DNA of 64,000 nt. Source: Geomonas silvestris (GTDB lineage Bacteria > Desulfobacterota > Desulfuromonadia > Geobacterales > Geobacteraceae). Numbering within the stretch: the first letter of the stretch is position 1; the number at the start of each line of letters is the position of its first letter. Below the pieces are notes generated by a model that searched no databases, had not been told where the DNA came from, and worked only from the letters and a program-made list of their open reading frames with translations. A program made the translations under genes and the position numbers. The DNA lies in NCBI RefSeq assembly GCF_014193515.1, contig NZ_BLXX01000001.1, positions 186,001 to 250,000 of the forward strand. The letters run 5' to 3'. Shown here one piece after another: positions 31,778 to 48,321 of the stretch.

Positions 31778-31806
31778 TTGACGCTGCTGTGATCCGTGTG
31801 TATATT
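31778..31806 (+). promoter_or_regulatory. Sigma-70-like promoter of the 12-haem cytochrome gene
   Basis: TTGACG (31778-31783), 17-base spacer, TATATT (31801-31806), about 64 bases before the start codon at 31870. Confidence 0.65.
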
Positions 31807-31869
31807 ATGGCGGCTTCTGCCCGGGTCGGCAAAGCAAAATATTACTATCAACGTCAGAAGGAGTGTACC

Positions 31870-32889
31870 ATGCAGTTTCGCCTTTCCGTTCTAACGCTGT
31901 TCATTCTTTGTGCTTTGCCGCTTTCTGGCTGGGCCCTTGAGACGAAAGATATCAAGTTCCCGATCAAAAACGCCGATCCGGTCACCTTCAGCCACGACGT
32001 TCATCTCAAAGCCTACAACAACAACTGCAAGATCTGTCACAACGCCATCTTCAATCTGAAGGACAAGCACCACTACACCATGGCCGAGATGGAGAAGACC
32101 AAATCCTGCGGCGCCTGCCACACCGGCGTCAAGGCCTTCAGCGTGGCTGATGCCAAGAGCTGCAACCGCTGCCACAAAGGAAAGCCGCGCAACATCGCCT
32201 ACAAGGTAAAAGGTGCCGGCGAGATCGTGTTCAACCACGCAAACCACCTGGGCAAGCTCAACAACGACTGCAAGGCCTGCCACAGCAAGATCATCACCGG
32301 CAAGGACGGCCGTGTCACCATGGCCCAGATGGAGAAAGGCAAGACCTGCGGCGCCTGCCACAACGGCAAGCGGGCCTTCACCGTCGCCGGCAACTGCGGC
32401 AACTGCCACAAAGGGATGAAGCCGCACGACATCGCCTTCAAGATGAAGGGCATAAACCAGGCGGTGTTCAGCCACGACGTCCATACCTCCGCCTACAGCT
32501 GCAAAGAGTGCCACACCAAGGTCTTCGCGTTCAAGGCCGGTGCGAAGCACTACACCATGGCGGAGATGGAGAAAGGGAAGTCCTGCGGGACCTGCCACAA
32601 CGGCAAGGATGCCTTCTCGGTGGCGGGCGACTGCAACAAGTGCCACAAAGGGTTCAAGCCAGGCGCCATGATCTTCAAAACCGACAGCGGCGACGCCAAG
32701 TTCAGCCACGACTTCCACCTGGAAGCCTACAAGTGCGCCGACTGCCACACCAAGCTCTTCCCCTACAAGCACGGCGTGAAACACTTCACCATGGGCGACA
32801 TGGAGCACGGCAAGTCCTGCGGTGCCTGCCACAACGGCAAAGACGCCTTCAGCGCCGCAGGCGACTGCGAGAAGTGCCACAAGATGTAA
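31870..32889 (+). CDS. Dodecahaem c7-type cytochrome (four triheme repeats)
   Basis: A 339-residue exported cytochrome: signal peptide (about 1-22, ending SGWA), then four repeats of about 80 residues, each with three CXXCH haem sites (12 in all: CKICH, CGACH, CNRCH; CKACH, CGACH, CGNCH; CKECH, CGTCH, CNKCH; CADCH, CGACH, CEKCH). Each repeat has the pattern FSHDVH... YTMAEMEKGKSCGACH... FSVAGDC, with extra His for bis-His ligation. This is the c7-polymer triheme architecture known from Geobacter periplasmic cytochromes, used to pass electrons across the periplasm. ATG 31870 has AAGGAG upstream; a terminator follows, so it is a single-gene unit. Confidence 0.95.
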   Translation: MQFRLSVLTLFILCALPLSGWALETKDIKFPIKNADPVTFSHDVHLKAYNNNCKICHNAIFNLKDKHHYTMAEMEKTKSCGACHTGVKAFSVADAKSCNRCHKGKPRNIAYKVKGAGEIVFNHANHLGKLNNDCKACHSKIITGKDGRVTMAQMEKGKTCGACHNGKRAFTVAGNCGNCHKGMKPHDIAFKMKGINQAVFSHDVHTSAYSCKECHTKVFAFKAGAKHYTMAEMEKGKSCGTCHNGKDAFSVAGDCNKCHKGFKPGAMIFKTDSGDAKFSHDFHLEAYKCADCHTKLFPYKHGVKHFTMGDMEHGKSCGACHNGKDAFSAAGDCEKCHKM

Positions 32890-33846: not shown

Positions 33847-34344
33847 TTAAGGGGCGCCTGGACTTTCGCAGAGATAGCTGACGGGCTTTCCCGCCGGGAG
33901 CTCTGCGCACAGCCTCGCAAGCTCCCCTCCCGGTGCAGCATAGGCCACCACCACGGCGTCGGCCAGAGCCACAACGTGACGGTTTCTCTGGCGGCACTTG
34001 TCCCGGCAGGCGTGGGTCACGCTCGCGGCATAACGGGTCAGCACGAGCAGTTCCCCGCGCTCCAAGGCGCGTTCCAGCCCGGGTGCCAAGGCGAGGGGGA
34101 GCCCGCGGGCCAGCACCAAAACCAGAGGGTGCCCGGCCTCGAGCAACCAGCCGAGCAGGGTCCTCTCCAAGGGGGTCTGGAACCCGGAGATGACACAGCC
34201 CCCACCCCCACAGCACCTCTCAAACCACCCCCGCGCCAGCACGGTCAGCCCGGCGGGGGCGTCGTGCGAGGCAAAAAAGGCCGTCTTGTGCAGCTGCAAC
34301 AGGCCACGGTTTCCCAACGTCCCTCCAAAGCTTCCCTGCTTCAT
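33847..34344 (-). CDS. DprA/Smf-like Rossmann protein, short
   Basis: A 165-residue protein resembling the nucleotide-binding Rossmann core of DprA/LOG-type proteins (GNRGLLQLHKTAFFAS at the N-terminus, VISGFQTPLERTLL as the GxxTPLE-like segment, ALADAVVVAYAAPGGEL near the C-terminus). It lacks the extra SAM-like and winged-helix domains of full DprA, and a cysteine-rich stretch (ERCCGGGGCVISG) replaces the usual GGARGID-type loop. A role in DNA uptake or nucleotide binding cannot be claimed. It converges with the DUF72 gene. Confidence 0.7.
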   Translation of the reverse strand: MKQGSFGGTLGNRGLLQLHKTAFFASHDAPAGLTVLARGWFERCCGGGGCVISGFQTPLERTLLGWLLEAGHPLVLVLARGLPLALAPGLERALERGELLVLTRYAASVTHACRDKCRQRNRHVVALADAVVVAYAAPGGELARLCAELPAGKPVSYLCESPGAP

Positions 34345-35144
34345 GGTTCTCCCCCTTGCCTGCGGTCCCCTGTCCCGTGTCCGAGCTTCAGTGTACCAGA
34401 GGACTCCGCCGGGAACGCCCTACCCGCCGGCGGGAGGGGTCCTGCTCCTTTTGAGACAGCTGCTTTTTTTGAGCACCTGAAAAAACCGCGGAAATGCCAT
34501 GAGTTAGCGGCCTTCAGGGAGGGTCGGCCGTCGCCGAACAGACACCCCTCCCGCCGTTGGAGTACAGGCAGACGAAAATTAAAGTCCCGTAGTTTCAGCC
34601 CATTAGGAACCGACCGGCCAATGGCACGCTTGTTGTAGTTTGAGCAGCGTGCCCGTTTCCCGCCGGTCCTCGACCCTGACGCCCCATCCCCCCGGCACCA
34701 CGAGCAGTGTAAGGAATTTCGACAGCGCAGCAAAGGCCCTCAAGAACGTCTCCAGAGGCCTCTCACCAACCGCTCACGCCAAAATCCAAGCATTTCCTAA
34801 TTCTAATTACTTTAATTAGATACTGCGCATCGTTGCATCCTGAATTTACCTACTCCCTGTTTTTTACCTCTACTTTCCCGGCGTGACCCTTTGTAAAGAA
34901 AATCGACAATTCGTAAGAGTCCTCCCACCAATCTTTTCAGACAGAGCAGTCCTCCCCCTAGAAGCCCCTCCACTAACTTGCTGATTCTTCGCAGGAAAAC
35001 TTCCAGAGAACGGCACCAGTACGGCCTAGGCGGCCAGACCCACTGTCGGAGAAATTGACACCCCCCCCGGTACGGATGCCCAGTGCGCCCTCCCGGACAC
35101 CATTCCTTACATTTAACCCAATACAATTAAAAGAACTTTTACAC
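34345..35144. other. Gene-free interval with hairpins upstream of the PEP-CTERM gene
   Basis: About 800 bases with no convincing gene on either strand. It includes GGCACGCT (34623-34630) pairing with AGCGTGCC downstream to 34653; that same site looks like a weak sigma-54 element (TGGCACG then TTGTA). The 34780-34960 stretch is unusually AT-rich and C-rich for this genome. It may hold upstream activator sites for the sigma-54 promoter at 35145 or an unannotated small RNA. Confidence 0.5.
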
Positions 35145-35161
35145 TTGGCACCGAACTTGCT
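35145..35161 (+). promoter_or_regulatory. Sigma-54 (RpoN) promoter of the PEP-CTERM gene
   Basis: TTGGCAC-CGAAC-TTGCT, with GG (35147) and GC (35159) exactly 12 bases apart as in -24/-12 promoters, is an essentially perfect match to the consensus. It lies 131 bases before the start at 35292. Transcription should need a bacterial enhancer-binding protein. Confidence 0.85.
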
Positions 35162-35291
35162 CGGGTTTGGCAACTTCTACTCGTTCTCGGATCGATTGGT
35201 ATTCACAGTTCTCGGCATCTATTCGATCTCTGCAGTACTTACCCGGTCCTGTTGTCACCGGCAGGAACTACATCTAAAACAGGAGGCAAAA

Positions 35292-35993
35292 ATGAAGAAG
35301 ACCACCGGAACCGTTTTAGCGCTGTTAACACTGATCTGTGCACTATGGGTCGCACCGGCCTTGGCGACCAACTACACCATCACAGGTTACACCGCCTCGC
35401 TCCTGGTCACTGACCCGGTAACCGGCGCCGTGCTCGGCGGCGATACCGGCCTAAACGGCTACTACAGCCTCGATCTCACCGGCAACAACAACACCAGCCT
35501 CTCCGCCTCCCTCACCCTGTTCGCCGCCAACGGCGACGGCAGCCGGAACTTGGTGAACCCGGCCGTCCTTTACAGCTCCGCGCTGATCGACAAGTTCTAC
35601 TTCAACCTGACCGGCAGCAACTTCACCCTGGGGAGCAATCTCACCGGCGACATGCTGCAGCTCTCCTTCGCAGCGCTCCCCGCTGACCCGAACTACCCCG
35701 GCGTCGTGGCGTCCAACGCGCTTCCGGTGGCGAACGGGAACGTCTACGTGAACCAACTCTACATCGACAGCAACGGCCAGCCGGTCAGCTACGGTCCCGA
35801 CGGCCTCCCCACCTCCCCGACCACCGTCTACGGCAGCATCCTTGTTCCGGATATCTTCGCCACCGATATCCTCGGCAATCTCATCGACTTCCCGGTGGAA
35901 GACGCGGCGGCCCCGGTTCCCGAGCCGTCCACCTTCCTGCTCCTCGGCCTGGGCCTCGCCGGCCTCGGCTACCTGCGGCGCCGCACCGCCTAG
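35292..35993 (+). CDS. PEP-CTERM sorting domain protein
   Basis: A 233-residue secreted protein: signal peptide (about 1-25, ending APALA), a beta-rich Thr/Asn/Gly-rich body, and the C-terminal sorting signal VPEPSTFLLLGLGLAGLGYL followed by RRRTA (about 208-233). This tripartite signal is recognised by exosortase, which typically acts in exopolysaccharide-producing Gram-negative bacteria. No exosortase is in this window, so it must be elsewhere. AGGAGG lies just before ATG 35292. It is driven by a sigma-54 promoter, consistent with the known RpoN/PrsR control of PEP-CTERM genes, and is 72 bases ahead of a multicopper oxidase gene. Confidence 0.92.
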   Translation: MKKTTGTVLALLTLICALWVAPALATNYTITGYTASLLVTDPVTGAVLGGDTGLNGYYSLDLTGNNNTSLSASLTLFAANGDGSRNLVNPAVLYSSALIDKFYFNLTGSNFTLGSNLTGDMLQLSFAALPADPNYPGVVASNALPVANGNVYVNQLYIDSNGQPVSYGPDGLPTSPTTVYGSILVPDIFATDILGNLIDFPVEDAAAPVPEPSTFLLLGLGLAGLGYLRRRTA

Positions 35994-36065
35994 GGCAGAT
36001 GCAGCTCTTAACTCACGACACCAACGTTCCATCCGCTACGGGCACCGCCCGAAAAGGAGCCGTAC

Positions 36066-38642
36066 ATGAAAGATATATCCAGGAGAAAGTTCCTGCAGAT
36101 TTCGGCACTGACCGCCGGCGCCAGCATGCTCCCCATGCCGCTCAAGTGGCTGGGGAGCTCCCCGGCGCAGGCCTTCTCGCAAAGCCTGCCGCTGCTTAAG
36201 AAAACGGCCTATCCGCTGCGCGGTCTGGCCTTCTCGGGTCCGGTCCTGGGCGCCATCCCGCCCAGCGCCTTCTACGCCAACGACCCCAGCGGGATCCCGG
36301 TATTGACCGGCACCCCCGACCCGTACTTCGCCAACACCCTTAAGTACGACATCTCGGTAGGCGAGTACACCGACCAGCTGCACCCGGGCATGGGGCCCAC
36401 CACCCTGTACGGCTACCACGACACCAACAACCCGACGGCCAAGAAGCACCTGGGCGGCCTCATCATCGCGGCTCGCGGCACCGCTTCGCGCCTGCGCTTC
36501 ACCAACCAGCTCCCCGCGACCCACATCATCCCGGTCGACACCTCGGTCCCGGGGGCCATCCAGCGCCAGGACCGCACCGCGACCCACCTGCACGGCGGGT
36601 TCATCCCCTGGGTGAGCGACGGCGGGCCGTTCGACTGGTTCTCGCCGGCCGGCACCAGCACCGGCAGCACCGGCAGGGGGACCGCCTACGCCGGGATGAG
36701 CTTCCAAAACGGCAGGGGCGGGTTCATCGACGCCCTGACCGGCAACGCCATGGCCGCGGGGCAGGCCGACTACTACTACCCCAACGACCAGAGCACCCGG
36801 CTCATGTGGTACCATGACCACGCCTGGGGTATCACCCGCATCAACGCCTATGCCGGTATCGCCACCGGCTACCTCTGCCTCGACCTCGCCCAGGAGGCCC
36901 CCTTCGCAGCGGGCGGCGTGCTCGACATTCTGACCGGCACCACGGGCAACGCCAACGGCCCCAAGTTCGGCCAGGTCCCCCAGCTCACCGAGCTCATCCC
37001 GCTGGTGTTCCAGGACAAGATCTTCGTCACCCCCACGACCTTGGCCTCGGACCCCACCTGGGCCAGCGCGGCACCGGCACGGGTGCAGGGCGACGGCAGC
37101 CTCTGGTACGCCCACGTCTACGAGCCCAACCGCTGGCGCATCAAGACCGGCCGCGGCTTCAAGACCCCGCCCAACCCCTCCTGCATCCCCGAGTTCTTTG
37201 GTGACACCATGCTCTGCAACGGGACCGTGGCGCCGGTAGCCCAAGTCCAGGCGAGGCGTTTCCGCTTCGTCCTGCTCAACGCCTGCAACGCCCGTTTCTT
37301 GAACATCAACATGCTGCAGGTGAACCCTGGTTGCGAAGTCAGCACCGACCCGCTGACCGGCCTGCCCAACGGCCAGTTCGACTACCAGAACAACGTCGCC
37401 GTGCCGGCCCTCCCCAGCGTCGGGCCGCAGATCATCCAGCTCGGCTGCGAAGGGGGCTACCTGCAGGCCCCCGTGGTCTTCCCGGCTACGGCACCGACCC
37501 CGACCACCGGCAACATCGTCCCCTTCAACCCGGTAACCTTCTCCGGGAACCTGATCATCGGCTGCGCCGAGCGTGCCGACTTCATCATCGACTTCTCGGG
37601 GTACCCGGTGGGGAGCGAGTTCGTGTTCTACAACGACGCCGCAGGCCCTTACCCCTTGGGCGATCCGCGCAACGACTACTATGCCGGCAACCCCAGCACC
37701 CCGAGTGCGCAAGCGGGGTCGACCATCGACACCCGCAACATCCTGCGCTTCAAGATCATCGCCGGCGGCGCCACCGACCCGCAGCCCGCGGCCTCCGCGA
37801 TCCAGCTGCCGCCCCTCGACCCGCCGCCCCTGGCGACCGCCACCACCCCGGGCGCACCGCTCACCGTTCCGGCCGGCGCCTTCATGCGCGACCTCACCCT
37901 GAACGAAGACTTCGACGCCTGGGGCCGCCTGCGCCAGGTGCTCGGCACCACCAAGAAGTCGCTGGTCGGCTCGGGCTTCGGCCTCGAGTACCTCGCACCT
38001 GCCACCGAGATTATCCCCCAGGGGGCGACCGAGGTCTGGCGCATTTTCAACCTGACCGGCGACACGCACCCGATCCACTTCCACCTGCAGACCGGCCAGA
38101 TCATCTCGCGCCAGCCCTTCCAGGTGGTGAACGGCCTGTTCGTTCCGACCGGCGTGGCGCGCGGACCCGAGCCGAACGAGATGGGGTGGAAAGAGACCGC
38201 CAAGATGAACCCGGGCGAGGTCATCACCATGGTCTTCAAGTGGGACATGGCCGCCGTCCCCTTCGACGTCCCCTACTCCGACCGCCAGATGGGCGCCCTC
38301 GGGGCCGCCATCGCCCAGGCCAACGAGTTCGTATGGCACTGCCACATCCTCGAGCACGAAGAGCACGACATGATGCGCCCCATGGTCGTCACCGGGAAGA
38401 ACCCGCAGCGGCCTAACATCGTGCCGACCGGCGGCACCCTCCCCAAGGCAGCGCAACTCTTCACGGTCACCCTGCCTGCCGGCCACAGCTTCAGCGTGAC
38501 CCCGGGTACCGGCGCCCCGGCGCCGGCCACCCAGAACGCCACCTCCTTCACGGTGGACTTCACGGCGGCCAGCGGCACCTTCAGCTACACCGTCACGGAC
38601 CTGGCCAACGGCCTCAGCTCTTCGGTTACCGTAACCGTGTAG
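36066..38642 (+). CDS. Tat-exported multicopper oxidase, paralogue 1
   Basis: An 858-residue multicopper oxidase. It begins with a Tat signal (SRRKFLQISALTAGASML). All copper-binding motifs are present in order: THLHGG (about 174), WYHDHAWG (about 250), HPIHFH (about 668) and HCHILEHEEHDMM (about 758), giving type 1, 2 and 3 copper ligands. A C-terminal beta domain (about 800-858, SFTVDFTAASGTFSYTVTD) follows. It is larger than laccases and CueO, similar to the large multicopper proteins of Geobacter linked to metal reduction. It follows the PEP-CTERM gene and should share its sigma-54 promoter. Substrate (Cu(I), Mn(II), Fe(II) or phenols) unknown. Confidence 0.93.
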   Translation: MKDISRRKFLQISALTAGASMLPMPLKWLGSSPAQAFSQSLPLLKKTAYPLRGLAFSGPVLGAIPPSAFYANDPSGIPVLTGTPDPYFANTLKYDISVGEYTDQLHPGMGPTTLYGYHDTNNPTAKKHLGGLIIAARGTASRLRFTNQLPATHIIPVDTSVPGAIQRQDRTATHLHGGFIPWVSDGGPFDWFSPAGTSTGSTGRGTAYAGMSFQNGRGGFIDALTGNAMAAGQADYYYPNDQSTRLMWYHDHAWGITRINAYAGIATGYLCLDLAQEAPFAAGGVLDILTGTTGNANGPKFGQVPQLTELIPLVFQDKIFVTPTTLASDPTWASAAPARVQGDGSLWYAHVYEPNRWRIKTGRGFKTPPNPSCIPEFFGDTMLCNGTVAPVAQVQARRFRFVLLNACNARFLNINMLQVNPGCEVSTDPLTGLPNGQFDYQNNVAVPALPSVGPQIIQLGCEGGYLQAPVVFPATAPTPTTGNIVPFNPVTFSGNLIIGCAERADFIIDFSGYPVGSEFVFYNDAAGPYPLGDPRNDYYAGNPSTPSAQAGSTIDTRNILRFKIIAGGATDPQPAASAIQLPPLDPPPLATATTPGAPLTVPAGAFMRDLTLNEDFDAWGRLRQVLGTTKKSLVGSGFGLEYLAPATEIIPQGATEVWRIFNLTGDTHPIHFHLQTGQIISRQPFQVVNGLFVPTGVARGPEPNEMGWKETAKMNPGEVITMVFKWDMAAVPFDVPYSDRQMGALGAAIAQANEFVWHCHILEHEEHDMMRPMVVTGKNPQRPNIVPTGGTLPKAAQLFTVTLPAGHSFSVTPGTGAPAPATQNATSFTVDFTAASGTFSYTVTDLANGLSSSVTVTV

Positions 38643-38670
38643 GCACGCTTCATAATCCGATCGGCACGTT

Positions 38671-38706
38671 AAACCCCGGCGCTTCCCGCGCCGGGGTTTC
38701 TTTTGC
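38671..38706 (+). terminator. Terminator after multicopper oxidase 1
   Basis: AAACCCCGGCGC (38671-38682) pairs with GCGCCGGGGTTT (38688-38699), followed by CTTTTG. Confidence 0.9.
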
Positions 38707-38946
38707 GCCTGAATCCTTCATGAGAGGCTGCGGCACCACCCGATCCCAAACCGGCTGAAATGGTTGACCTTTTTTGCAACAGCGCTAAAAAAAGAGCAGC
38801 CCCGAAAATTACCCCGCCGCACGCGGTTTTCCGCGCCGAACCGGTTTGGCCGTTGCCTATCCGGAGCACCCCTTTTCCCAGCGTTCCCGGCGTCCTCCTG
38901 CCTGCGAAGCGGCACCAAGAGACCTTTTTGATCCTGTTTCTCGCTT

Positions 38947-38963
38947 TTGGCACATTTCCTGTA
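38947..38963 (+). promoter_or_regulatory. Possible weak sigma-54 site before multicopper oxidase 2
   Basis: TTGGCAC-ATTTC-CTGTA keeps a perfect -24 half but has GT in place of GC at -12. It lies about 100 bases before the gene. The 421-base gap (38643-39064) has no gene. Considered tentative. Confidence 0.35.
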
Positions 38964-39064
38964 CTTACGGCGGCAGACTCCGACCCCGCACGCCCCGCGG
39001 CGCCGGGATCAGGGAGCCCCTGCTGCACCTGTAGCCATTTCATGCCATCAAAAGGAGAACCGCC

Positions 39065-41635
39065 ATGATCAAGGAGATGTCGCGCAGGAGATTCTTGCAG
39101 ATAACCGCCCTGGCTGCCGGAGGGACCCTGCTCCCGCTGCGCTGGATCGGTTCGACCCAAGCCCAGGCCTTCGCCCAGAGCCTCCCCCTGCTGAAAAAGG
39201 ATGCAACGCCGTTTCGCGGCCTCGCCTTCTCGGGGCCGGTATTGGGGAGCATCCCGCAAAGCGCGTTCTACGCGAACGATCCCAACGGGATTCCGGTCCT
39301 CTCCGGAACCCCGGACCCGTACTTCGCCAACACCATGAAGTACGACATCACCCTCGAGGAGTTCCAGGACCAGCTGCACCCCAAGATGGGGCCCACCACC
39401 CTGTGGGGCTACCGCGACAGCAACAACCCGGCCGCGAGAAAGCACCTGGGGGGGATCATCATCGCGGCGCGCGGGACCGCCTCGAGGCTGCGCTTCACCA
39501 ACAACCTCCCGGCCCAGCACATCATCCCGGTCGACACCACCATCCCCGGCGCGAACCAGGCCCAAAACCGCACCGCAACCCACCTGCACGGCGGATTCAT
39601 CCCCTGGGTGAGCGACGGCGGCCCCTTCGACTGGTTCACCCCGAGCGGGACCAGCGCGCTCAGGGGGACCGGAGCCGCCGGCCTTGGCTTCCAAAACGGC
39701 CAGGGGGGCTTCCTCGACGCCCTGACCGGCAACACCATGCAGCCGGGGCAGGCCGACTACTACTACACCAACGACCAGAGTACCCGCCTCATGTGGTACC
39801 ACGACCACGCCTGGGGGATCACCCGGATCAACGCCTACGCAGGGGTCGCCACCGGCTACCTCTGCCTGGACCTGGCCCAGGAGGCCCCTTTTGCCGCAGG
39901 CCCGGTGCTCGACCTGGTCACCGGCAGTACCGGCAACGCCAACGGCCCGAAGTTCGGCCAGCTCCCCCAGCTCACCGAGCTCATACCGCTGGTCTTCCAG
40001 GACAAGATCTTCGTCAACGCCGGCACCACCGCGACCGACCCGACCTGGACCAGCGCGGCGCCCACCAAGAGCTGGGCCGACGGGAGCCTTTGGTACGCCC
40101 ACGTCTACGACCCGAAACTCTACCGGCTGAAAAACGGCCGCGGCTTTCTGGCCCCCCCCAACCCCTCCTGCGTTCCGGAGTTCTTCGGGGACACCATGCT
40201 CTGCAACGGGACCGTGGCCCCGGTGGTGCCGGTCCAGGCGCGCCGCTTCCGCTTCATGATGCTGAACGCCTGCAACGCGCGGTTCCTGAACCTGAACCTT
40301 TTGCAGGTGAACCCGGGGTGCGAGGTGGCCACCAACCCGAAGAGCGGCCTCCCCTCCGGGCAGTTCGACTACCTGAACAACGTCGCGGTGGCGACGCTCC
40401 CGGTACCGGGTCCCAAGATCATCCAGATCGGCACCGAAGGGGGCTACCTCCCGCAACCGGTGGTCTTCCCGGCTACCCCCCCAACCGCTGCCACCGGGAA
40501 CATCGTCCCCTTCAACCCGGCCACCTTCGCCGGCAACCTGGTCCTTGGCTGCGCCGAGCGCGCCGACTGCATCATCGACTTCTCCGGCTACCCGGTGGGG
40601 AGCGAGTTCGTGTTCTACAGCGACTCCCCGGGCCCCTACCCGGTCGGCGCCCCGACCAACGACTACTACGCCGGCAACGGCGCCACCCCGGCGGCGGTCG
40701 CCGGGTCCACCGTGGACACCAGGAACGTCCTGCGCTTTAGGATCGTGGCAGCCGGCGCCGCCGACCCGCAGCCCCCGGCGGCCTCGGTCCAGCTCCCCCC
40801 CATGGACCCGCCCCCCCTGGCGGCCGGCACCGGCGGGGTGACCCCGCTCAGCGTCCCGGCGGGCGCGGTGGTCCGCAACCTCACCTTGAACGAGGACTTC
40901 GACCTCTACGGGCGGCTGCGCCAGATGCTGGGAACCACCGCCATGGGGCTCGTCAACAAGCAGTTCGGCATGGAGTACCTGGCCCCGGCCACCGAGGTGA
41001 TCGCCCAGGGGAGCACCGAGGTCTGGCGCATCTTCAACACCACCGCGGACACCCACCCGATCCACTTTCACCTGCAGAATTGCCAGGTGGTGTCCCGCCA
41101 GCCCTTCAAGCTCATAAGCGGCACCTTCACCCCGACCGGCGCGCCCCGCGGCCCGGAACCCAACGAACTGGGGTGGAAGGAGACCGTGCGGATGAACCCG
41201 GGCGAGGTGACCACGGTGATCTTCAAGTGGGACATGGCGGCCGTCCCCTTCGACGTCCCCTTCTCGGACCGTCCGATGGGGAGCGCCGCCGCTCCGATCA
41301 TCGCCCAGGCCAACGAGTTCGTCTGGCATTGCCACATCCTCGAGCACGAGGAGCACGACATGATGCGCCCGTTGGTCATAACCGGAAAGAACCCGCAGCG
41401 CCCCAACGTGGTCCCCACCGGCGGCACGGTTCCCAAGGCGGTGCAGCTTTTCAGCGTGACCCTCCCTGCCGGGTCCGCCGGCTTCACGGTCACCCCGGGC
41501 GCTGGCGCCCCGGCACCGATCGGCTACAGTGCGAACAGCTTCAGCGTCGACTTCAGCGCCGCCGCCGGAACCTTCAGCTACACCGTCACGGACACCACGA
41601 CCGGGCTCACTTCCTCGGTCACCATAACAGCTTAA
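39065..41635 (+). CDS. Tat-exported multicopper oxidase, paralogue 2
   Basis: An 856-residue paralogue of the preceding oxidase, about three quarters identical by eye along most of its length. It has a Tat signal (MSRRRFLQITALAAGG), THLHGG (about 174), WYHDHAWG (about 246), HPIHFH (about 664) and HCHILEHEEHDMM (about 756), and the same C-terminal beta domain. GGAGA lies before the start. A terminator separates it from copy 1, so it is expressed on its own or from read-through. All copper ligands are intact, so both copies look functional. They probably arose by tandem duplication. Confidence 0.93.
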   Translation: MIKEMSRRRFLQITALAAGGTLLPLRWIGSTQAQAFAQSLPLLKKDATPFRGLAFSGPVLGSIPQSAFYANDPNGIPVLSGTPDPYFANTMKYDITLEEFQDQLHPKMGPTTLWGYRDSNNPAARKHLGGIIIAARGTASRLRFTNNLPAQHIIPVDTTIPGANQAQNRTATHLHGGFIPWVSDGGPFDWFTPSGTSALRGTGAAGLGFQNGQGGFLDALTGNTMQPGQADYYYTNDQSTRLMWYHDHAWGITRINAYAGVATGYLCLDLAQEAPFAAGPVLDLVTGSTGNANGPKFGQLPQLTELIPLVFQDKIFVNAGTTATDPTWTSAAPTKSWADGSLWYAHVYDPKLYRLKNGRGFLAPPNPSCVPEFFGDTMLCNGTVAPVVPVQARRFRFMMLNACNARFLNLNLLQVNPGCEVATNPKSGLPSGQFDYLNNVAVATLPVPGPKIIQIGTEGGYLPQPVVFPATPPTAATGNIVPFNPATFAGNLVLGCAERADCIIDFSGYPVGSEFVFYSDSPGPYPVGAPTNDYYAGNGATPAAVAGSTVDTRNVLRFRIVAAGAADPQPPAASVQLPPMDPPPLAAGTGGVTPLSVPAGAVVRNLTLNEDFDLYGRLRQMLGTTAMGLVNKQFGMEYLAPATEVIAQGSTEVWRIFNTTADTHPIHFHLQNCQVVSRQPFKLISGTFTPTGAPRGPEPNELGWKETVRMNPGEVTTVIFKWDMAAVPFDVPFSDRPMGSAAAPIIAQANEFVWHCHILEHEEHDMMRPLVITGKNPQRPNVVPTGGTVPKAVQLFSVTLPAGSAGFTVTPGAGAPAPIGYSANSFSVDFSAAAGTFSYTVTDTTTGLTSSVTITA

Positions 41636-41689
41636 TGAGCATTGGCGGCGGGCGCCCGGCGCCCCCCGCGCCCCTTGGTTGGGTCTGTT

Positions 41690-41722
41690 GGCCCCGGTGC
41701 TCCTGCATCGGGGCCCCTTTTC
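41690..41722 (+). terminator. Terminator after multicopper oxidase 2
   Basis: GGCCCCGGTGC pairs with GCATCGGGGCC, followed by CCTTTTCC. Confidence 0.85.
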
Positions 41723-41743
41723 CTGGATTCCCGCACACTAAGC

Positions 41744-41779
41744 TTGACAAATGTGAATGAAAACAATATTGTTTTCATT
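41744..41779 (+). promoter_or_regulatory. Sigma-70 promoter overlapped by a perfect 24-bp palindrome
   Basis: TTGACA (41744-41749), 17-base spacer, TATTGT (41767-41772). A perfect inverted repeat (half-site AATGAAAACAAT) spans 41756-41779 and covers the -10 box, the layout of a repressor operator. The half-site TGAAAAC is loosely Fur-like, and no regulator gene lies beside it. It precedes the HExxH gene of the Cus-like operon by 42 bases. Confidence 0.8.
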
Positions 41780-41820
41780 AGCCCAATCTACCCCACGTAT
41801 AGCTCAGCCTCGGAGATGCC

Positions 41821-42513
41821 ATGACACGAAAATCGACCAAAAACGTGCTCAAGAAGGTCTTTGACAGCCTCGACTGGCCCATCCTGGAAAGCGGGACGGA
41901 CATGCCGATGATCCGCATCCTGTCCGATCACAAGAACAAGTCGCACTTCAAGTACGTCCCGGCCAAGGAGCAGAACAAAAGCAGCGATCTCGACCACCTG
42001 CACGAACTGGGGCACGCCACCTTCTGCGAAAAGATCCATCCGGTGTTCGCCACCAACAGCCAGTTCCCTGCCATGGCGAACAAGAAGCAGTTCCTGCCGA
42101 TGCTCCCCGCCCTGAGCACGGCCAGCGACTGGTTCGTCTGCCACTGGCAGCAGGAGCTCCTCCCCGAGGAGATGTGCGGGGTGATCCGGGAGAGCATGCC
42201 GCTTGTAGAGGAGATCCTCGGCAAGGAGGAGCTCCCCCCCATCGAGATCATCCTGGACGCCTCGCTTTTGATCGCGCAGGCCAAGCGCTACCTCAACGAA
42301 CCGATCGACTGCGGCGGTCCGCTCAAGGACCTGGTGGACGCCTTCCTTTCCGTCCCCCCCGAGGCCCCCTCGGCCGAGAACCTCACCATCCTGATCAACA
42401 AGCTGATGGCGACCTACAGCGAGGAGCGGGTGTGCCTGGTGCCGGAGGCTGACGCGCTGGTCTGGAACATCGAGAAGCTCGAGGCCGCTGCACCGGCGGG
42501 TCAGGTGTCATGA
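41821..42513 (+). CDS. Unknown HExxH-motif protein leading the Cus-like operon
   Basis: A 230-residue cytosolic protein (no signal peptide) with HELGHATF (about 61-68), the zinc-binding HExxH pattern of metallopeptidases, in the context LDHLHELGHATFCEKIHP. No family recognised; relation to IrrE/ImmA-type peptidases is possible only because of this motif. Other notable residues are Cys in DWFVCHWQQE, EEMCG and ERVCLV, and many Met. Its stop overlaps the next start by four bases (ATGA), so it is coupled to the efflux genes. A role in handling or sensing the exported metal, or repair of proteins it damages, is inferred. Confidence 0.8.
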   Translation: MTRKSTKNVLKKVFDSLDWPILESGTDMPMIRILSDHKNKSHFKYVPAKEQNKSSDLDHLHELGHATFCEKIHPVFATNSQFPAMANKKQFLPMLPALSTASDWFVCHWQQELLPEEMCGVIRESMPLVEEILGKEELPPIEIILDASLLIAQAKRYLNEPIDCGGPLKDLVDAFLSVPPEAPSAENLTILINKLMATYSEERVCLVPEADALVWNIEKLEAAAPAGQVS

Positions 42514-44117
42514 GCCGGCTGCTGGCCGTGGCCGCGCTGCTCGTCCTGGTCGCCGCGTCCTTTCTGGCCGGCGCCTGGGTGAGCCATCGCGCAGCCCCCC
42601 AGGCCGGGGCCGCCGCGGGTCGCAAGGTCCTCTACTGGGTCGACCCGATGCACCCCTCCTACACCTCGGACAAGCCGGGGATAGCACCCGACTGCGGCAT
42701 GCCGCTCGAGCCGGTCTACGCCGACGGCAAGCCCGGCGGCGGAGGGAAGCAAGCGCTGCCGCCGGGGACCGTGCAGGTCTCGGCCGGCCAGCAGCAGCTT
42801 ATCGGGGTGAAGCTCGGGACGGTGGAGCGCAGCGGAGCGAACCAGACCCTGAGGCTCGCCGGCCGGGTGGTGCCTGACGAGCGGCGCACCTACGTGATCA
42901 ACGCGACCATCGACGGCTGGATCACCGGGGTGGGGGGCAACACCACCGGCTCCATCGTGAAAAAGGACGAGGTTTTGGCCACCTTCTACAGCTCCGAGTT
43001 CCTCTCGGCCGGCCAGGCGCTCATCTACGCCCTCACCTCCATGGACCGCTCCATGGGGACCAGCGCCGCCACCCAGGCCCAGAAGGACCAGATGCAGCAG
43101 TTCAACGTAAGTCTCAAGCAGTACCGCGATGCCCTGCGCAACCTGGGGATGGGCGATGTCCAGATCCAGCGCATGATAAAGACCCGCAAGTACATGGAGA
43201 ACGTGGACATCGCCTCGCCGGGGAGCGGCGTGGTGCTGGTCCGCAACGTCTCCCCCGGCCAGCGCTTCGAGCGCGGCAAGGAGCTCTACCGGATTGCGGA
43301 CCTCTCCCGGATCTGGGTGCTCGTCGACACCTACGGCGCCGAGGCGGACCAGATGAAGCCCGGCAGCACGCTGAAGGTCTCCCTCCCCAACCGCAACCTG
43401 AACTTCACCGGGAAGGTCTCCGCCACCCCCCCCGTTTTCGATCCCGCCAGCCGCACCCTGAAGGTCCGCGTCGAGGTCGACAACCCGCGCTACCTGTTGC
43501 GTCCCGACATGTTCGTGGACGTCGAGCTCCCCAACCGGTTCCCCAACCTCCTGGCAGTCCCCGCCGAGGCCCTTCTCGACTCCGGGCTCAAGAAGGTGGT
43601 CTACGTGGAGCGGGCTCCCGGCCAGTTCGAGCCGCGCGAGGTGGAGACCGGGAGGAGCTTCGGCGGGCGCGTGGAGATCATCTCCGGCCTCAAGGAAGGG
43701 GAGCGCATCGCGCTTTCCGGCACCTTCCTGCTCGACTCCGAGAGCCGGATGAAGACCGCGGCGGCCGGCATCGCGACGGTGGCGCACCAGGACCCGGTCT
43801 GCGGCATGTACGTCGACGAGGCGAAGGCGACGGCCGCCGGCCACCTGGCCCAGCGCGCGGGGGTCACCTACTACTTCTGCTCCGACGACTGCATGAACAA
43901 GTTCCTGAAAAACCCGGCCGGGAAAACGCTCCCCAGGCAGCCCATGGCCGCGCCCCCCGGCGCGGTAACGGATAAGCCGGGCGCCCAGGCCAAGGAGCAC
44001 AAGGAGCACCCGACGGCCCCGAAGGGGCGCGAACCGGAGCACCAGGGTCACCAGATGAGTGATGATATGGGCCGCACCATGGGCCATGACATGGGGCAGA
44101 TGGACCACAAGCCATGA
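42510..44117 (+). CDS. CusB-like efflux adaptor with HMBD and YHS domains
   Basis: A 535-residue periplasmic adaptor of a heavy-metal RND pump. After an N-terminal membrane anchor (about 3-22) there is a heavy-metal-binding domain (YWVDPMHPSYTSDKPGIA and PDCGMPLEPVY, about 41-70), then the membrane-fusion barrels and lipoyl hairpin typical of CusB (about 110-390). Unusually, a YHS domain follows (DPVCGMYVDEAKA, YYFCSDDCMNKF, about 430-465), and the C-terminus is His/Met-rich (HQMSDDMGRTMGHDMGQMDH). All are copper/silver-type ligand sets. It overlaps both neighbours by ATGA. No CusC-type channel is in the window. Confidence 0.91.
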   Translation: MSRLLAVAALLVLVAASFLAGAWVSHRAAPQAGAAAGRKVLYWVDPMHPSYTSDKPGIAPDCGMPLEPVYADGKPGGGGKQALPPGTVQVSAGQQQLIGVKLGTVERSGANQTLRLAGRVVPDERRTYVINATIDGWITGVGGNTTGSIVKKDEVLATFYSSEFLSAGQALIYALTSMDRSMGTSAATQAQKDQMQQFNVSLKQYRDALRNLGMGDVQIQRMIKTRKYMENVDIASPGSGVVLVRNVSPGQRFERGKELYRIADLSRIWVLVDTYGAEADQMKPGSTLKVSLPNRNLNFTGKVSATPPVFDPASRTLKVRVEVDNPRYLLRPDMFVDVELPNRFPNLLAVPAEALLDSGLKKVVYVERAPGQFEPREVETGRSFGGRVEIISGLKEGERIALSGTFLLDSESRMKTAAAGIATVAHQDPVCGMYVDEAKATAAGHLAQRAGVTYYFCSDDCMNKFLKNPAGKTLPRQPMAAPPGAVTDKPGAQAKEHKEHPTAPKGREPEHQGHQMSDDMGRTMGHDMGQMDHKP

Positions 44118-47100
44118 TAGACAGGGTCATCGAATTCTCGGCGCACAACCGCTTCCTGGTCCTCATCGTGGCGGCCGTCCTGGCCGTATGCGGCTGGTGG
44201 TCCCTGAAGCACCTCCCCCTGGACGCCATTCCCGATCTCTCCGACACCCAGGTGATCATCTACTCGCGCTGGGACCGCAGCCCGGACCTCATCGAGGACC
44301 AGGTCACCAACCCGATCGTCTCCTCGATGCTGGGCGCCCCGAAGGTGAAGACGGTGCGCGGCTTCTCCGACTTCGGCTACTCCTTCGTCTACGTGATCTT
44401 CGAGGAGGGGACCGACATCTACTGGGCCCGATCCCGGACGCTCGAGTACCTCTCCGCGGTGCAGCAGCGCCTCCCCCAGGGGGTGCGCACCGAACTCGGC
44501 CCCGACGCCACGGGGCTTGGCTGGGTGTTCCAGTACGCCCTGGTCGACACTACCGGGAGCCGCAGCCTGGCCGAGATCCGCTCCTACCAGGACTGGTACC
44601 TGCGCTACTACCTGAAGTCGGTCCCCGGCGTCGCCGAGGTGGCGCCGGTCGGTGGCTTCGTGCGCCAGTACCAGGTGAACGTCGACCCGAACCGGCTCCA
44701 GTCCTACCGGCTTTCCATCAACAAGGTGGTCGAGGCGGTGCGCGGCGGCAACGCCGAAAGCGGCGGGCGCTTGGTCGAGTTCGGCGGCACCGAGTACATG
44801 GTGCGCGGCCGCGGCTACGCGAAGAGCCTGGAGGACTTCGGCAACATCGTCGTCTCCGTGAACGAGGAGAGCGGCTCGCCCATCCGGGTCAAGGACGTAG
44901 GGACGGTGACCCTGGGACCCGACCTGCGCCGCGGCGTCGCCGACCTAAACGGCACCGGCGACGCGGTCTCCGGGATCGTGGTGATGCGCGAAGGGAGCAA
45001 CGCCCTCGAGGTGATCAACCGGGTCAAGGCGAAGCTGAAAGAGATCGAACCGGGGCTGCCGCACGGGCTCAAGGTGGTCCCCGTCTACGACCGCTCCGAC
45101 CTGATCCTCAGGGCGATCGACACCCTCAAGGGGACGCTGGTCGAGGTGATCCTCACCGTGATGCTGGTGATCGTGGTCTTTTTGTGGCACCCCCCTAGTG
45201 CGATCATCCCCGCCCTCACCATCCCCTGCGCCGTGCTGATCTCCTTCATCCCGCTTAGGATGATGGGGGTGAACGCCAACATCATGTCGCTTGGGGGGAT
45301 CGCCATCGCGATCGGTGCGCTGGTCGATGCCGCCATCGTCGTCGTGGAGCAGACCCACAAGAAGCTCGAGGCCTGGGAGGCCGGCGGGCGGGTGGGGGAC
45401 CAGCGGGCCATCGTGCTTGCCGCGCTGAAAGAGGTAGGCGGCCCGAGCTTCTTCGCCCTCCTGGTGATCGCGGTCGCCTTCCTCCCGGTCTTCGCCCTGG
45501 AGGCCCAGGAGGGGCGCCTCTTCAAGCCGCTCGCCTACACGAAGACCCTCGCCATGGCGGCCGCGGCCTTTCTGACCATCACCCTCGACCCGGCGCTGCG
45601 CGTCCTTTTGACCACCACGCGGCACTTCTCCTTCCGTCCGCGCCCCTTGAGCCGGCTCTTGAACGCAGTCACCGCCGCCCCCTTCAAGGACGAGCACCAA
45701 CACCCCGTGAGCCGCACCCTGATCCGGGTCTACGAGCCGGTGGTGCGCTGGGTCCTGAACCAGAAGCAGCTCGTCCTGGGGACCGCCCTGCTCCTCGTGC
45801 TCCTCACCGTGCCGCTCGCGCTCAAGCTGGGGAGCGAGTTCATGCCCCCCTTGGACGAGGGGAGCCTCCTCTACATGCCGACCACCATGCCCGGCATCTC
45901 CGTGGGGGAGGCCCAGAAACTCCTGCAGGTGACCGACCGGATCATCAAGGGTTTTCCCGAGGTGGACCAGGTGCTCGGCAAGGCGGGCCGCGCCGAGACC
46001 CCGACCGACCCCGCTCCGCTCTCGATGCTGGAAACGGTGATCATCCTGAAGCCGCGCGACCAGTGGCGGCCGGTCGAAACCTGGTACTCCGGGTGGGCGC
46101 CCGAGCCGCTCAAGAGGCTCTTGCGCCGCATCACCCCGGACCGGTTCTCCCAGGAGGAGCTGGTGGACCAGTTGAACCAGGCCCTGAAGATCCCCGGCGT
46201 CTCCAACGCCTGGACCATGCCGATCAAGGGGCGCATCGACATGCTGACCACCGGCATCCGCACCACCCTCGGGCTCAAGATCAGCGGTGCGAACCTGGTG
46301 GAGATGGAGCAGATCGGCGGCCAGGTGGAAGCGGCGCTCAGGCCGATCAAGGGTACCCGCAGCGTCTTTTCCGAAAGGACCGGCGGCGGCTACTTCCTGG
46401 ACATCACCTGGAACCGGGAGGAACTGGCGCGCTACGGGCTTAGTATCGACGAGGCGCAGTCCGTGCTGCAGAGCGCCATCGGCGGGGACAACGTGACCAC
46501 CTCGATCCAGGGGCGCGAGCGCTACCCGGTGAACGTGCGCTACCAGCGCGACTTCCGCACCGACCTCCCGGCGCTGCGCCGGGTCCTCGTACCGGTGGCC
46601 GGCGGCACCCGCCAGGTCCCCCTGGGAGAGCTCGCCGAGGTGAGCGTGGCAAGCGGCCCCTCCATGATCCGCAACGAGGACGGCCTTTTGACCGGCTACG
46701 TCTACGTCGACCTGCAGGGGCGCGACCCCCAGGGGTACATCGACGAGGCGGCACCGCTTTTGCGCAAGCAGGTGGAGCTCCCGCCGGGCTACGCCCTCTC
46801 CTGGAGCGGGCAGTACGAGGCGATGCAGCGCGTGAAGGAGCGGCTCGCCATGGTGGTCCCCGTGACGCTCTTGCTCATCATGGGGCTTTTGTACCTGAAC
46901 ACGAAGAGCCTGGTGAAGACCTCCCTCATCCTGTTGGCGGTCCCCTTCTCAGCGGTGGGCGCCGTCGTGCTCCTGTGGCTTTTGGGTTACCACCTGAGCG
47001 TCGGCGTCTGGGTGGGGCTCATCGCACTTTTGGGGGTCGATGCCGAGACCGGGGTATTCATGCTCCTCTACCTCGACCTTGCCTACCAGGAGGCCAAGAA

Positions 47101-47476
47101 GGCAGGGCGGCTGAACAGCCTGGCCGAGCTGCACGAGGCGATCGTCGAGGGGGCCGCCAAGAGGATCCGGCCCAAGTTCATGACCACCTCCACCATGTTC
47201 CTGGGGCTGTTGCCGGTCATGTGGGCGACCGGAAGCGGGGCCGACGTGATGAAACACATTGCGGCCCCCATGATCGGCGGCATCTTCACCTCGTTTTTGC
47301 TGGAGCTCTTGGTCTACCCGGCACTCTACGAGATCTGGAAGTGGCACTTCGAGCTTAAGGGTGCCGTCGCCAAGGCGACCCCGGCGGCAGAGGCGCTCAG
47401 CGCAGACGACCTGGTACTGGCTGCCATTGTCGGCCAGCCGCAACCTTCCGGAGGCAAGGATCCCGTAGGAGATTGA
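44114..47476 (+). CDS. CusA-like heavy-metal RND efflux pump
   Basis: A 1120-residue inner-membrane heavy-metal exporter of the HME-RND group. The N-terminus has VIEFSAHNRFLVLIVA and the conserved DAIPDLSDTQVII; later come the pore-domain region, VDAAIVVVEQTHKK with helix-4 Asp/Glu residues, GVDAETGVFMLLYLDLAY near helix 10, and PLAYTKTLAMAAAAFLTI. These match Cu/Ag-type (CusA/SilA) rather than multidrug pumps. With the adaptor just upstream (four-base overlap) it should move copper or silver out of the cell. The outer-membrane partner must be encoded elsewhere. Confidence 0.94.
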   Translation: MIDRVIEFSAHNRFLVLIVAAVLAVCGWWSLKHLPLDAIPDLSDTQVIIYSRWDRSPDLIEDQVTNPIVSSMLGAPKVKTVRGFSDFGYSFVYVIFEEGTDIYWARSRTLEYLSAVQQRLPQGVRTELGPDATGLGWVFQYALVDTTGSRSLAEIRSYQDWYLRYYLKSVPGVAEVAPVGGFVRQYQVNVDPNRLQSYRLSINKVVEAVRGGNAESGGRLVEFGGTEYMVRGRGYAKSLEDFGNIVVSVNEESGSPIRVKDVGTVTLGPDLRRGVADLNGTGDAVSGIVVMREGSNALEVINRVKAKLKEIEPGLPHGLKVVPVYDRSDLILRAIDTLKGTLVEVILTVMLVIVVFLWHPPSAIIPALTIPCAVLISFIPLRMMGVNANIMSLGGIAIAIGALVDAAIVVVEQTHKKLEAWEAGGRVGDQRAIVLAALKEVGGPSFFALLVIAVAFLPVFALEAQEGRLFKPLAYTKTLAMAAAAFLTITLDPALRVLLTTTRHFSFRPRPLSRLLNAVTAAPFKDEHQHPVSRTLIRVYEPVVRWVLNQKQLVLGTALLLVLLTVPLALKLGSEFMPPLDEGSLLYMPTTMPGISVGEAQKLLQVTDRIIKGFPEVDQVLGKAGRAETPTDPAPLSMLETVIILKPRDQWRPVETWYSGWAPEPLKRLLRRITPDRFSQEELVDQLNQALKIPGVSNAWTMPIKGRIDMLTTGIRTTLGLKISGANLVEMEQIGGQVEAALRPIKGTRSVFSERTGGGYFLDITWNREELARYGLSIDEAQSVLQSAIGGDNVTTSIQGRERYPVNVRYQRDFRTDLPALRRVLVPVAGGTRQVPLGELAEVSVASGPSMIRNEDGLLTGYVYVDLQGRDPQGYIDEAAPLLRKQVELPPGYALSWSGQYEAMQRVKERLAMVVPVTLLLIMGLLYLNTKSLVKTSLILLAVPFSAVGAVVLLWLLGYHLSVGVWVGLIALLGVDAETGVFMLLYLDLAYQEAKKAGRLNSLAELHEAIVEGAAKRIRPKFMTTSTMFLGLLPVMWATGSGADVMKHIAAPMIGGIFTSFLLELLVYPALYEIWKWHFELKGAVAKATPAAEALSADDLVLAAIVGQPQPSGGKDPVGD

Positions 47477-47505
47477 AAAGAAGAGTCGAGCATGAGGAAT
47501 GAGTC

Positions 47506-48057
47506 ATGGAATGGAAACGCTTAAGAAGCCTCGGATGTCTGTCACGCGGCCGACGCCTCGGCGCTGCCGCCCTGTCACTGTTTGCCTTCCTGGTTCTTGC
47601 CGGAACGCTCTCCCCTGCGGCCAGCGCCCGGACCCCGTTGCGGGTAGGCGATCCCCCGCCGGCGGTGAGCCTCCCCGACCTTGCGGGACACTCCCTGCGC
47701 ATCCCCGATGACGTGCGGGGCAAAGTTGTGGTGATCCACTTCTGGGCGGCAGGTTGCAGCTCCTGCAAAGAGGAGATGCCGGCCTTGGAGGGGTTGTACC
47801 GGAAATTTCAAAACCGGGGGCTGGCGGTTCTGGCGATCAACGTGGGGCAACCCCGCGCTGCGGTTAAGAGCTATCTCCAAGGTTTGGGGGTAAGCTACCC
47901 GATCTACCTGGACCAGGATGCCCGTGCGGCGCGCGAATACGAGGTAGTCGGCGTCCCGAAGACCGTGATTTTGGATCGCAGCGGGGTGGTGCGCTACAAG
48001 ATCCTGGGAAGCGCCACCGCCGCCTCCCTCACGAAGCTGGTGACGAGCCTTATGTAG
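47506..48057 (+). CDS. TlpA-like exported thioredoxin
   Basis: A 183-residue redoxin with a signal or membrane anchor (about 20-41) and a thioredoxin fold with active site WAAGCSSCKEE (about 81-85), cis-Pro region VGVPKTVILD. Such proteins keep periplasmic cysteines reduced, for example for cytochrome c maturation or copper-site assembly. It starts 30 bases after the CusA gene and may be co-transcribed, fitting a role in metal-stressed envelopes. Confidence 0.88.
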   Translation: MEWKRLRSLGCLSRGRRLGAAALSLFAFLVLAGTLSPAASARTPLRVGDPPPAVSLPDLAGHSLRIPDDVRGKVVVIHFWAAGCSSCKEEMPALEGLYRKFQNRGLAVLAINVGQPRAAVKSYLQGLGVSYPIYLDQDARAAREYEVVGVPKTVILDRSGVVRYKILGSATAASLTKLVTSLM

Positions 48058-48070
48058 CAAAAAAACCATG

Positions 48071-48224
48071 TTTGCCACGGAGGCACGGAGAGCACGGAGA
48101 AAACCTAATCTCCCACCAGGTTCGGCCTTTTGCGGTAACGCTCAAGGCCGAACCGGTTTTGAGGTGTTTAGTTTGTACCCGATTTGCCCCTTTCTCCGTG
48201 TTCTCCGTGCCTGCGTGGCGAAAT
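48071..48224. repeat. Nested palindromic repeat element
   Basis: An outer inverted repeat (TTTGCCACGGAGGCACGGAG... at 48071-48103 with its complement-like partner at 48190-48224, CTCCGTG units) encloses an inner perfect stem GGTTCGGCCTT (48119-48129) / AAGGCCGAACC (48144-48154). CCACGGAG-type repeats of this kind are dispersed in many bacterial genomes. The 48058-48321 gap has no gene. Confidence 0.85.
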
Positions 48225-48268
48225 AAAAAAAGGCGTCTGCAACCATCACGGTGCAGACGCCTTTGCAA
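48222..48268 (-). terminator. Terminator of the SseB-like gene
   Basis: AAAGGCGTCTGCA pairs with TGCAGACGCCTTT; on the minus strand a run of seven T follows. Confidence 0.9.
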
Positions 48269-48321
48269 TTCGGCAACTGTTTCGATGCGTGGGACCCCGG
48301 ACCGGGGTGCTCCACTTTTTA

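Follow-up and report, generated by a model that had tools for sequence, protein, structure and literature searches.

We analysed a stretch of 64,000 nucleotides from Geomonas silvestris (G000:C1:186001-250000, hereafter the window; host genome 5.1 Mb in 36 contigs), in which a gene for a PEP-CTERM protein is followed by a gene for a multicopper oxidase with a twin-arginine translocation (Tat) signal. The gene pair, together with its probable membership of the exosortase regulon, is well supported by our sequence comparisons. In Geomonas and relatives, the arrangement points to copper handling that is linked to the cell surface, and we see about an even chance that a copper-handling module has been joined to the exosortase (matrix protein) regulon. 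The first-pass annotation of the window had described a PEP-CTERM gene followed by two very similar multicopper oxidase genes with all copper ligands intact. The open reading frames (ORFs) were found as described, with 76% identity between the oxidases and the ligands kept, and the interpretation built on them is partly supported.

Conservation of the PEP-CTERM/oxidase pair

A search of 277 genomes of the class, in which up to three candidates per genome were scored, revealed 17 genomes with a short-type oxidase, which we define as a match of more than 600 bits in an open frame of less than 1,000 amino acids (aa). A PEP-CTERM gene lies directly upstream on the same strand in 14 of the 17 genomes (G000, G009, G233, G206, G191, G194, G195, G190, G184, G192, G187, G252, G186 and G193). 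Because 14 of the 17 genomes share this order, the comparison indicates that the pairing is beyond chance and not coincidental. G195 has an additional second oxidase copy, which is unpaired. The short oxidase has no PEP-CTERM partner in G226, G256 and G024; the oxidase match in G024 begins at model position 34, and its frame start has no twin-arginine motif. In G226, where no exosortase was detected, a 468-aa curlin-repeat protein (Curlin_rpt) is encoded 46 bp upstream of the oxidase gene, and a multihaem MtrC-like protein is encoded after it (L068:6546-12066). In G256, the gene for a small exported-looking protein, by eye rich in Tyr, Glu, Pro and Arg (L234:1695-2114), ends 845 bp before the unpaired oxidase gene.

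The wide contig scan comprised 78 loci, kept from the best 80 of 154 confirmed stretches. A PEP-CTERM ORF was found upstream of the oxidase on the same strand at 11 of the 78 loci, and downstream of none of the oxidases. Nine of these pairs have gaps of 4-132 bp, the Solibacter pair being kept at 4 bp; the gaps are about 640 bp in L114 and about 405 bp in L115, which have weak promoter boxes and were retained in the counts. Eight of the nine loci titled Geomonas, Geobacter, Desulfuromonadaceae or Desulfuromonadales are paired, the exception being L068. The two counts overlap, since nine of the 14 class pairs either recur among the 11 pairs of the wide scan or lie on the same contigs (G233, for example, is L044). 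Two candidates were rejected: L085 was dropped from the 78-locus count, its ORF lying inside the oxidase gene in another frame, and L158 was dropped from the stretches of the window's own genome, its tail not being of the PEP-CTERM type by eye. Within the family, a close oxidase was found in 3 of 48 genomes at E 1e-60.

Tandem oxidases were seen in the neighbourhoods of just two of the 14 paired genomes, those of the window and of Geomonas limicola, which is the closest named relative to have the cluster. The conserved unit is therefore the PEP-CTERM gene with one oxidase gene, and not the paired oxidases that the first-pass annotation had proposed. The long oxidases (frames of at least 1,100 aa) are separate matches from the short ones in the class search, and no PEP-CTERM ORF was found within 1.5 kb beyond the matched part at any of 13 long-oxidase loci (L185-L197). 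The same held within 1.5 kb at the 25 loci of a phylum search of 395 genomes (L198-L222), which include the window's oxidase 2. In both sets, the upstream view is shorter than 1.5 kb where the frame extends further upstream. Long oxidases also sit elsewhere in the window's genome. A second tandem pair of multicopper oxidases, of 1129 and 1212 aa, is encoded on the minus strand of G000:C5 (L150:3460-10929), and no PEP-CTERM ORF was found beside it in a 15-kb stretch.

When the sorting signals were left out, the partner proteins formed several groups with no detectable mutual similarity. With the signals included, the window's partner shows weak full-length similarity to the L047 stretch (29%, E 4e-10). 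In a quick oxidase tree of 81 rows, where the second copies of the window and G. limicola were labelled paired and L047 was a partial row, the "paired" label needs at least four changes under the starred branches, compared with 13.1 for shuffled labels. About three changes would be expected without the loose Desulfarculales pair. Partner groups this dissimilar, together with at least four changes of label, speak for an association of PEP-CTERM proteins with this oxidase that arose repeatedly or has been maintained. A literature search, mostly without full texts, surfaced no account of such a pairing and none on multicopper oxidases in Geomonas. The gene ompB and PEP-motif genes appear in one table of down-regulated genes, with no link drawn between them in the available part of that paper (PMC10599522).

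Exosortase system and promoter of the pair

The product of 35292-35993 has the C-terminal PEP motif, hydrophobic stretch and Arg cluster of PEP-CTERM substrates (PF07589, 32.9 bits; cut-off 20.7) and, as judged by eye, a Sec-type signal. The ATG at 35292 has a ribosome-binding site before it, and the listed frame starts further upstream. The predicted model of the protein had a predicted local distance difference test (pLDDT) score of 50.9, which is below usable quality for a fold search. Nine PEP-CTERM matches above the cut-off were found in the genome. The proposal of the first-pass annotation depended on the presence of an exosortase, and a single copy (PF09721, 257.4 bits; cut-off 25.7) was found on the window's contig at a distance of about 123 kb. 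An EpsI domain (142.9 bits; cut-off 42.8), PrsK (520.6 bits; cut-off 300) and PrsR (628.6 bits; cut-off 502.6) are encoded near it. All 14 paired class genomes have an exosortase, and none was found in the unpaired G226 and G256. The chance that both exosortase-free genomes would fall among the three unpaired of 17 is 3 in 136 in this small test, which ignores relatedness.

A PrsR-box-like motif and a sigma-54 site precede the pair. The box, TGTCGGagaaaTTGACA, matches 11 of the 12 fixed positions of TGTCG[GA]N5TTTACA, and TGGCACcgaacTTGC is the sole full-score sigma-54 site in the 64 kb on both strands and is identical in G. limicola. According to the accessible portion of Haft 2006 (PMC1569441), 99 of 167 proteobacterial PEP-CTERM genes have a sigma-54 motif that is preceded, at a distance of 32-92 nt, by a 17-nt motif ending in TTTACA. 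In Aquincola, the PEP-CTERM gene pepA is described as RpoN-dependent, as far as the available text goes (PMC9850573). Motif 1 and the sigma-54 motif upstream, together with the regulator in the genome, are the features of the PrsR/RpoN regulon, and all are present here.

The regions upstream of 16 PEP-CTERM/oxidase pairs, with the window's own region included and the G195 pair not among them, were scored jointly for the box and the sigma-54 site, and 12 of them had a score of at least 21, compared with 7 of 4000 random 580-bp windows drawn from the window and the same loci, a pool that contains the true sites. The start codon had been shifted before scoring in L044, L047, L096, G192, L112 and L115, and one half of the box consensus, TGTCGG, was derived from the same sequences as were scored. 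All 12 regions at or above this score belong to the class, and the four below it are those of the G252 pair, of the Solibacter locus and of both Desulfarculales loci. Because the box and the sigma-54 site precede the pair here and in most relatives, oxidase 1 is probably a member of the exosortase regulon.

No terminator-like site was found on the plus strand between the PEP-CTERM gene and the oxidase 1 gene, and the two genes look like one sigma-54/PrsR unit. The common expression implied by the first-pass annotation may thus extend to these two genes, but oxidase 2 and the downstream Cus unit appear to be separate. A terminator-like hairpin follows each oxidase gene. The scan gave 11 such sites compared with 9.1 in shuffles, so the support for the hairpins lies in their position and conservation and not in their number. 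Upstream of oxidase 2, the best sigma-54-like match scored 11.7 of 14.7, which is at chance level (about 0.4 sites of at least 11.5 expected per 460 bp). The sigma-70-like site before the Cus unit is the only one in 34300-48600, compared with 1.2 in shuffles, a count not above chance. The 18-bp core of the palindrome that overlaps it occurs once in the genome at up to two mismatches and is kept in G. limicola.

The system found here resembles PEP-CTERM/exosortase systems under PrsK/PrsR/RpoN control in its sorting signal, exosortase, EpsI, PrsK, PrsR, motif 1 with sigma-54 site and large upstream intergenic region. It differs from the systems of Haft 2006, among which, in the portion available, more than 65% of PEP-CTERM genes appear as single-gene operons (PMC1569441), in that an oxidase gene follows the PEP-CTERM gene, apparently in the same unit. 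Co-regulation only might explain this arrangement, the oxidase lying behind an exosortase-regulon promoter for biofilm growth and the PEP-CTERM protein having an unrelated matrix job. Such an explanation would suit partner groups without mutual similarity, and the slot and, mostly, the promoter are indeed what is conserved. However, the pairing recurs across several oxidase clades, and both G252 and the Solibacter locus keep the pair though no box with sigma-54 site was found there. We consider co-regulation only to be unlikely.

The multicopper oxidases

Both oxidases have all four copper motifs (HLHGG, WYHDH, HPIHFH and HCHILEHEEHDMM) and a twin-arginine motif (SRRKFLQ and SRRRFLQ). The 12 copper ligand positions are invariant in alignments of 26 and 14 rows, each of which contains both window oxidases. 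The eight type 2/type 3 His, the type 1 Cys with two His and the axial Met of three-domain multicopper oxidases are all present, the sites being assigned on our assumption that they correspond to those of CotA. Among solved structures, oxidase 1 matches CotA best (E 5.4e-50), and CotA and bilirubin oxidase are the closest to it by sequence and fold; the fold matches, obtained with a predicted model of mean pLDDT 54.3, only repeat the sequence result. The window oxidase therefore appears nearest to CotA laccase and Bacillus pumilus bilirubin oxidase in sequence and predicted fold, with the axial Met aligned, and differs from them in its Tat signal, insertions and a C-terminal extension of about 80 aa past the CotA match.

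We claim no spore coat role for the window oxidases. One alternative reading is matrix maturation, in which the oxidase would modify or cross-link the PEP-CTERM protein or other matrix material, much as CotA probably does in the spore coat, while the neighbouring pump would only supply or guard the copper. The CotA/bilirubin-oxidase-like sequence and fold are consistent with this, as are the promoter of exosortase-regulon type and the matrix-type partner, whose place is taken by a curlin-repeat protein in a genome without a detected exosortase. However, matrix maturation would leave the Cus linkage only indirect, and Tyr is not enriched in 12 paired compared with 42 other PEP-CTERM proteins. 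Overall, it seems improbable to us.

Of the 13 class pairs identified by then, all but L047, whose frame holds a stop, entered the composition test; the G195 pair was found later. The test covered 12 residue sets, with p values that ignore relatedness and the number of tests. A Tyr-rich cross-linking partner was rejected on its result (medians 5.5 and 4.7%, p 0.66). The paired proteins are lower in Lys/Arg (1.5 compared with 3.4%, p 3e-4), Trp (p 0.006) and Asp/Glu (p 0.03).

Copper-efflux genes and the likely substrate

Downstream of the oxidases, the window encodes a putative metallopeptidase (HELGH protein), a CusBA-type pump and a thiol-disulfide oxidoreductase (Table 1).

Table 1. Positions of the genes and candidate signals of the cluster in the window
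Feature	Position	Strand	Basis or remark
PrsR-box-like motif TGTCGGagaaaTTGACA (Haft motif 1)	35044..35060	+	ends 85 nt before sigma-54 site
Sigma-54 promoter site TGGCACcgaacTTGC	35146..35160	+	full-score site
PEP-CTERM protein, 233 aa	35292..35993	+	PF07589, TIGR02595; PEP motif from nt 35919
Multicopper oxidase 1, 858 aa, Tat signal, CotA-like	36066..38642	+	PF07731 Cu-oxidase_2, structure relatives, alignment
Terminator-like hairpin after oxidase 1	38674..38696 (stem 38684-38696)	+	kept in G. limicola
Multicopper oxidase 2, 856 aa, Tat signal	39065..41635	+	PF07731 Cu-oxidase_2; 76% identical to oxidase 1
Terminator-like hairpin after oxidase 2, 11 pairs	41690..41715	+	kept in G. limicola
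Sigma-70-like promoter TTGACA-N17-TATTGT, possible Cus unit promoter	41744..41772	+	kept in G. limicola
24-bp perfect palindrome over -10 region, possible operator	41756..41779	.	precedes HELGH gene
230-aa protein, invariant HELGHA..CE..HP, putative metallopeptidase	41821..42513	+	motif in 8-row alignment
CusB-type adaptor with HMBD and YHS domains	42510..44117	+	PF16576, PF19335, PF04945
CusA-type resistance-nodulation-division (RND) pump, Cu(I)/Ag(I) methionine triad kept	44114..47476	+	TIGR00914 1056.7 bits; E. coli CusA alignment
ResA/TlpA-like thiol-disulfide oxidoreductase	47506..48057	+	PF00578; PRK03147 below its cut-off

The window's CusA scored 988 bits against E. coli CusA and 500 against the zinc pump ZneA. 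In this copy the three Cu(I)-site methionines, which we take to be Met573/Met623/Met672, are aligned and kept. A CusB relative lies downstream in 11 of the 14 paired class genomes. In the wide scan, where many loci are cut by contig ends and the CusB of L052 is on the other strand, one was found by 7 of 11 paired and 10 of 67 unpaired oxidase loci. Relatives of the ResA/TlpA-like protein were found behind CusA at other loci. The HELGH protein accompanies the oxidase in some paired relatives and also at the unpaired L050 and L068. It matched no Pfam family and, among solved structures, gave one weak match, to a designed protein; its motif presumably resembles that of ImmA/IrrE-type metallopeptidases. 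On the other side of the cluster, a cytochrome with four tri-haem c7-type domains (TIGR04257, 344 bits) is encoded at 31789-32889, 2.4 kb before the PEP-CTERM gene.

Because of the neighbouring genes, copper is the likeliest substrate of the oxidase. Periplasmic Cu(I) oxidases of the CueO/PcoA type operate together with CusCBA, and in C. metallidurans CopA reportedly does so as well. The window has the same combination of a Tat-exported multicopper oxidase and a CusBA-type pump. It differs in its CotA-like oxidase of about 850 aa, with no Met-rich stretch in oxidase 1, in its PEP-CTERM partner, in its promoter of exosortase-regulon type, and in that no CusC or CusF was recognised in 41821-48057, where alone they were sought.

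Cu(I), Mn(II) and Fe(II) were the substrates proposed in the first-pass annotation, with extracellular electron transfer as a further possible role. Of these substrates, Cu(I) agrees best with the neighbouring genes. Many database relatives of the oxidase carry the source name "spore coat protein A, manganese oxidase", which is a name only, and an MtrC-like multihaem protein follows the oxidase in L068. However, the neighbours indicate Cu(I) efflux. OmpB and OmpC of Geobacter are likewise exported multicopper oxidases, but they are longer than the window oxidases. The long oxidases of the family are separate matches, and no PEP-CTERM ORF was found within 1.5 kb beyond the matched part at any of the 13 loci. 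Electron transfer thus finds no support, and we regard it, like Mn(II) or Fe(II) oxidation, as very unlikely.

Proposed function

The best reading of these sequence data is Cu(I) detoxification by a pump together with a surface or matrix oxidase. PrsK/PrsR with RpoN would switch on the pair during matrix building. After export of the PEP-CTERM protein by Sec, the exosortase would process it and it would reach the surface or the extracellular polymeric substance (EPS), whereas the oxidase would be exported folded by Tat. At or near the surface or EPS layer, the oxidase would oxidise Cu(I) to Cu(II) with oxygen, while CusBA would clear Cu(I) from the periplasm. We hypothesise a contact between the oxidase and the matrix protein; in the least certain step, the PEP-CTERM protein may serve as a matrix partner that holds or shields the oxidase. 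In G. sulfurreducens, cobalt stress raised the PEP-motif genes GSU1079 and GSU1994 and the RND genes GSU2135-2137, according to the available text of that study (PMC7726332), which supports the reading as a copper module.

A more specific version, possible but doubtful in our view, is a slime layer with a catalytic copper-oxidising shell, in which a dedicated sorted matrix protein either holds the Tat-exported oxidase or serves as its target. This matrix protein would be interchangeable, being drawn from dissimilar PEP-CTERM groups or, where an exosortase is absent, replaced by a curlin-repeat protein.

Several results weigh against a copper module within the exosortase regulon. The gene order does extend beyond this strain, contrary to a limitation that the first-pass annotation had allowed for (14 of 17 class genomes), though only 2 of the 19 genomes of the window's genus have a full-length PEP-CTERM relative, and no more than these have the pair. 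G024 has four exosortase matches and an oxidase without partner, and no box with sigma-54 site was found upstream of the pair in G252. CusB was not found in the stretch examined at 3 of the 14 pairs (G194, G195 and G252), and its presence by 10 of 67 unpaired oxidases indicates that the copper link is independent of the PEP-CTERM partner. The Cus unit probably has its own promoter, and oxidase 2, behind a terminator-like hairpin, looks separately transcribed. Neither oxidase reached the cut-off of the CueO equivalog PRK10965 (47.2 and 59.2 bits for oxidases 1 and 2; cut-off 525) or of the o-aminophenol oxidase PhsA, NF045554 (114.2 and 123.1 bits; cut-off 950). Oxidase 1 has no 30-residue stretch holding at least five Met, such as the Met-rich segment of CueO. 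A copper-chelating partner was also rejected, since His, Cys and Met are not enriched in the paired proteins.

To our knowledge, a function has been established for only a small number of PEP-CTERM proteins. For one PEP-CTERM group, a testable role is suggested by its conserved enzyme partner, its clear promoter and the metal-efflux genes nearby. If the copper-module reading is true, matrix building would be tied to copper stress in metal-cycling bacteria.

A second PEP-CTERM/oxidase neighbourhood in the genome

Another neighbourhood of this kind was observed on the minus strand of G000:C4 (L149:1105-10335) in the same genome. It encodes an 823-aa dockerin protein, a 185-aa PEP-CTERM protein that by eye is cohesin-like, and a 1472-aa multicopper oxidase that carries chitobiase-C and Fn3-associated domains. 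The oxidase gene lies 472 bp after the PEP-CTERM gene, with a best sigma-54 score of 10.5, and the locus was kept out of the short-oxidase counts. Among surface-sorted proteins, a cohesin-dockerin pair would be an unusual find.

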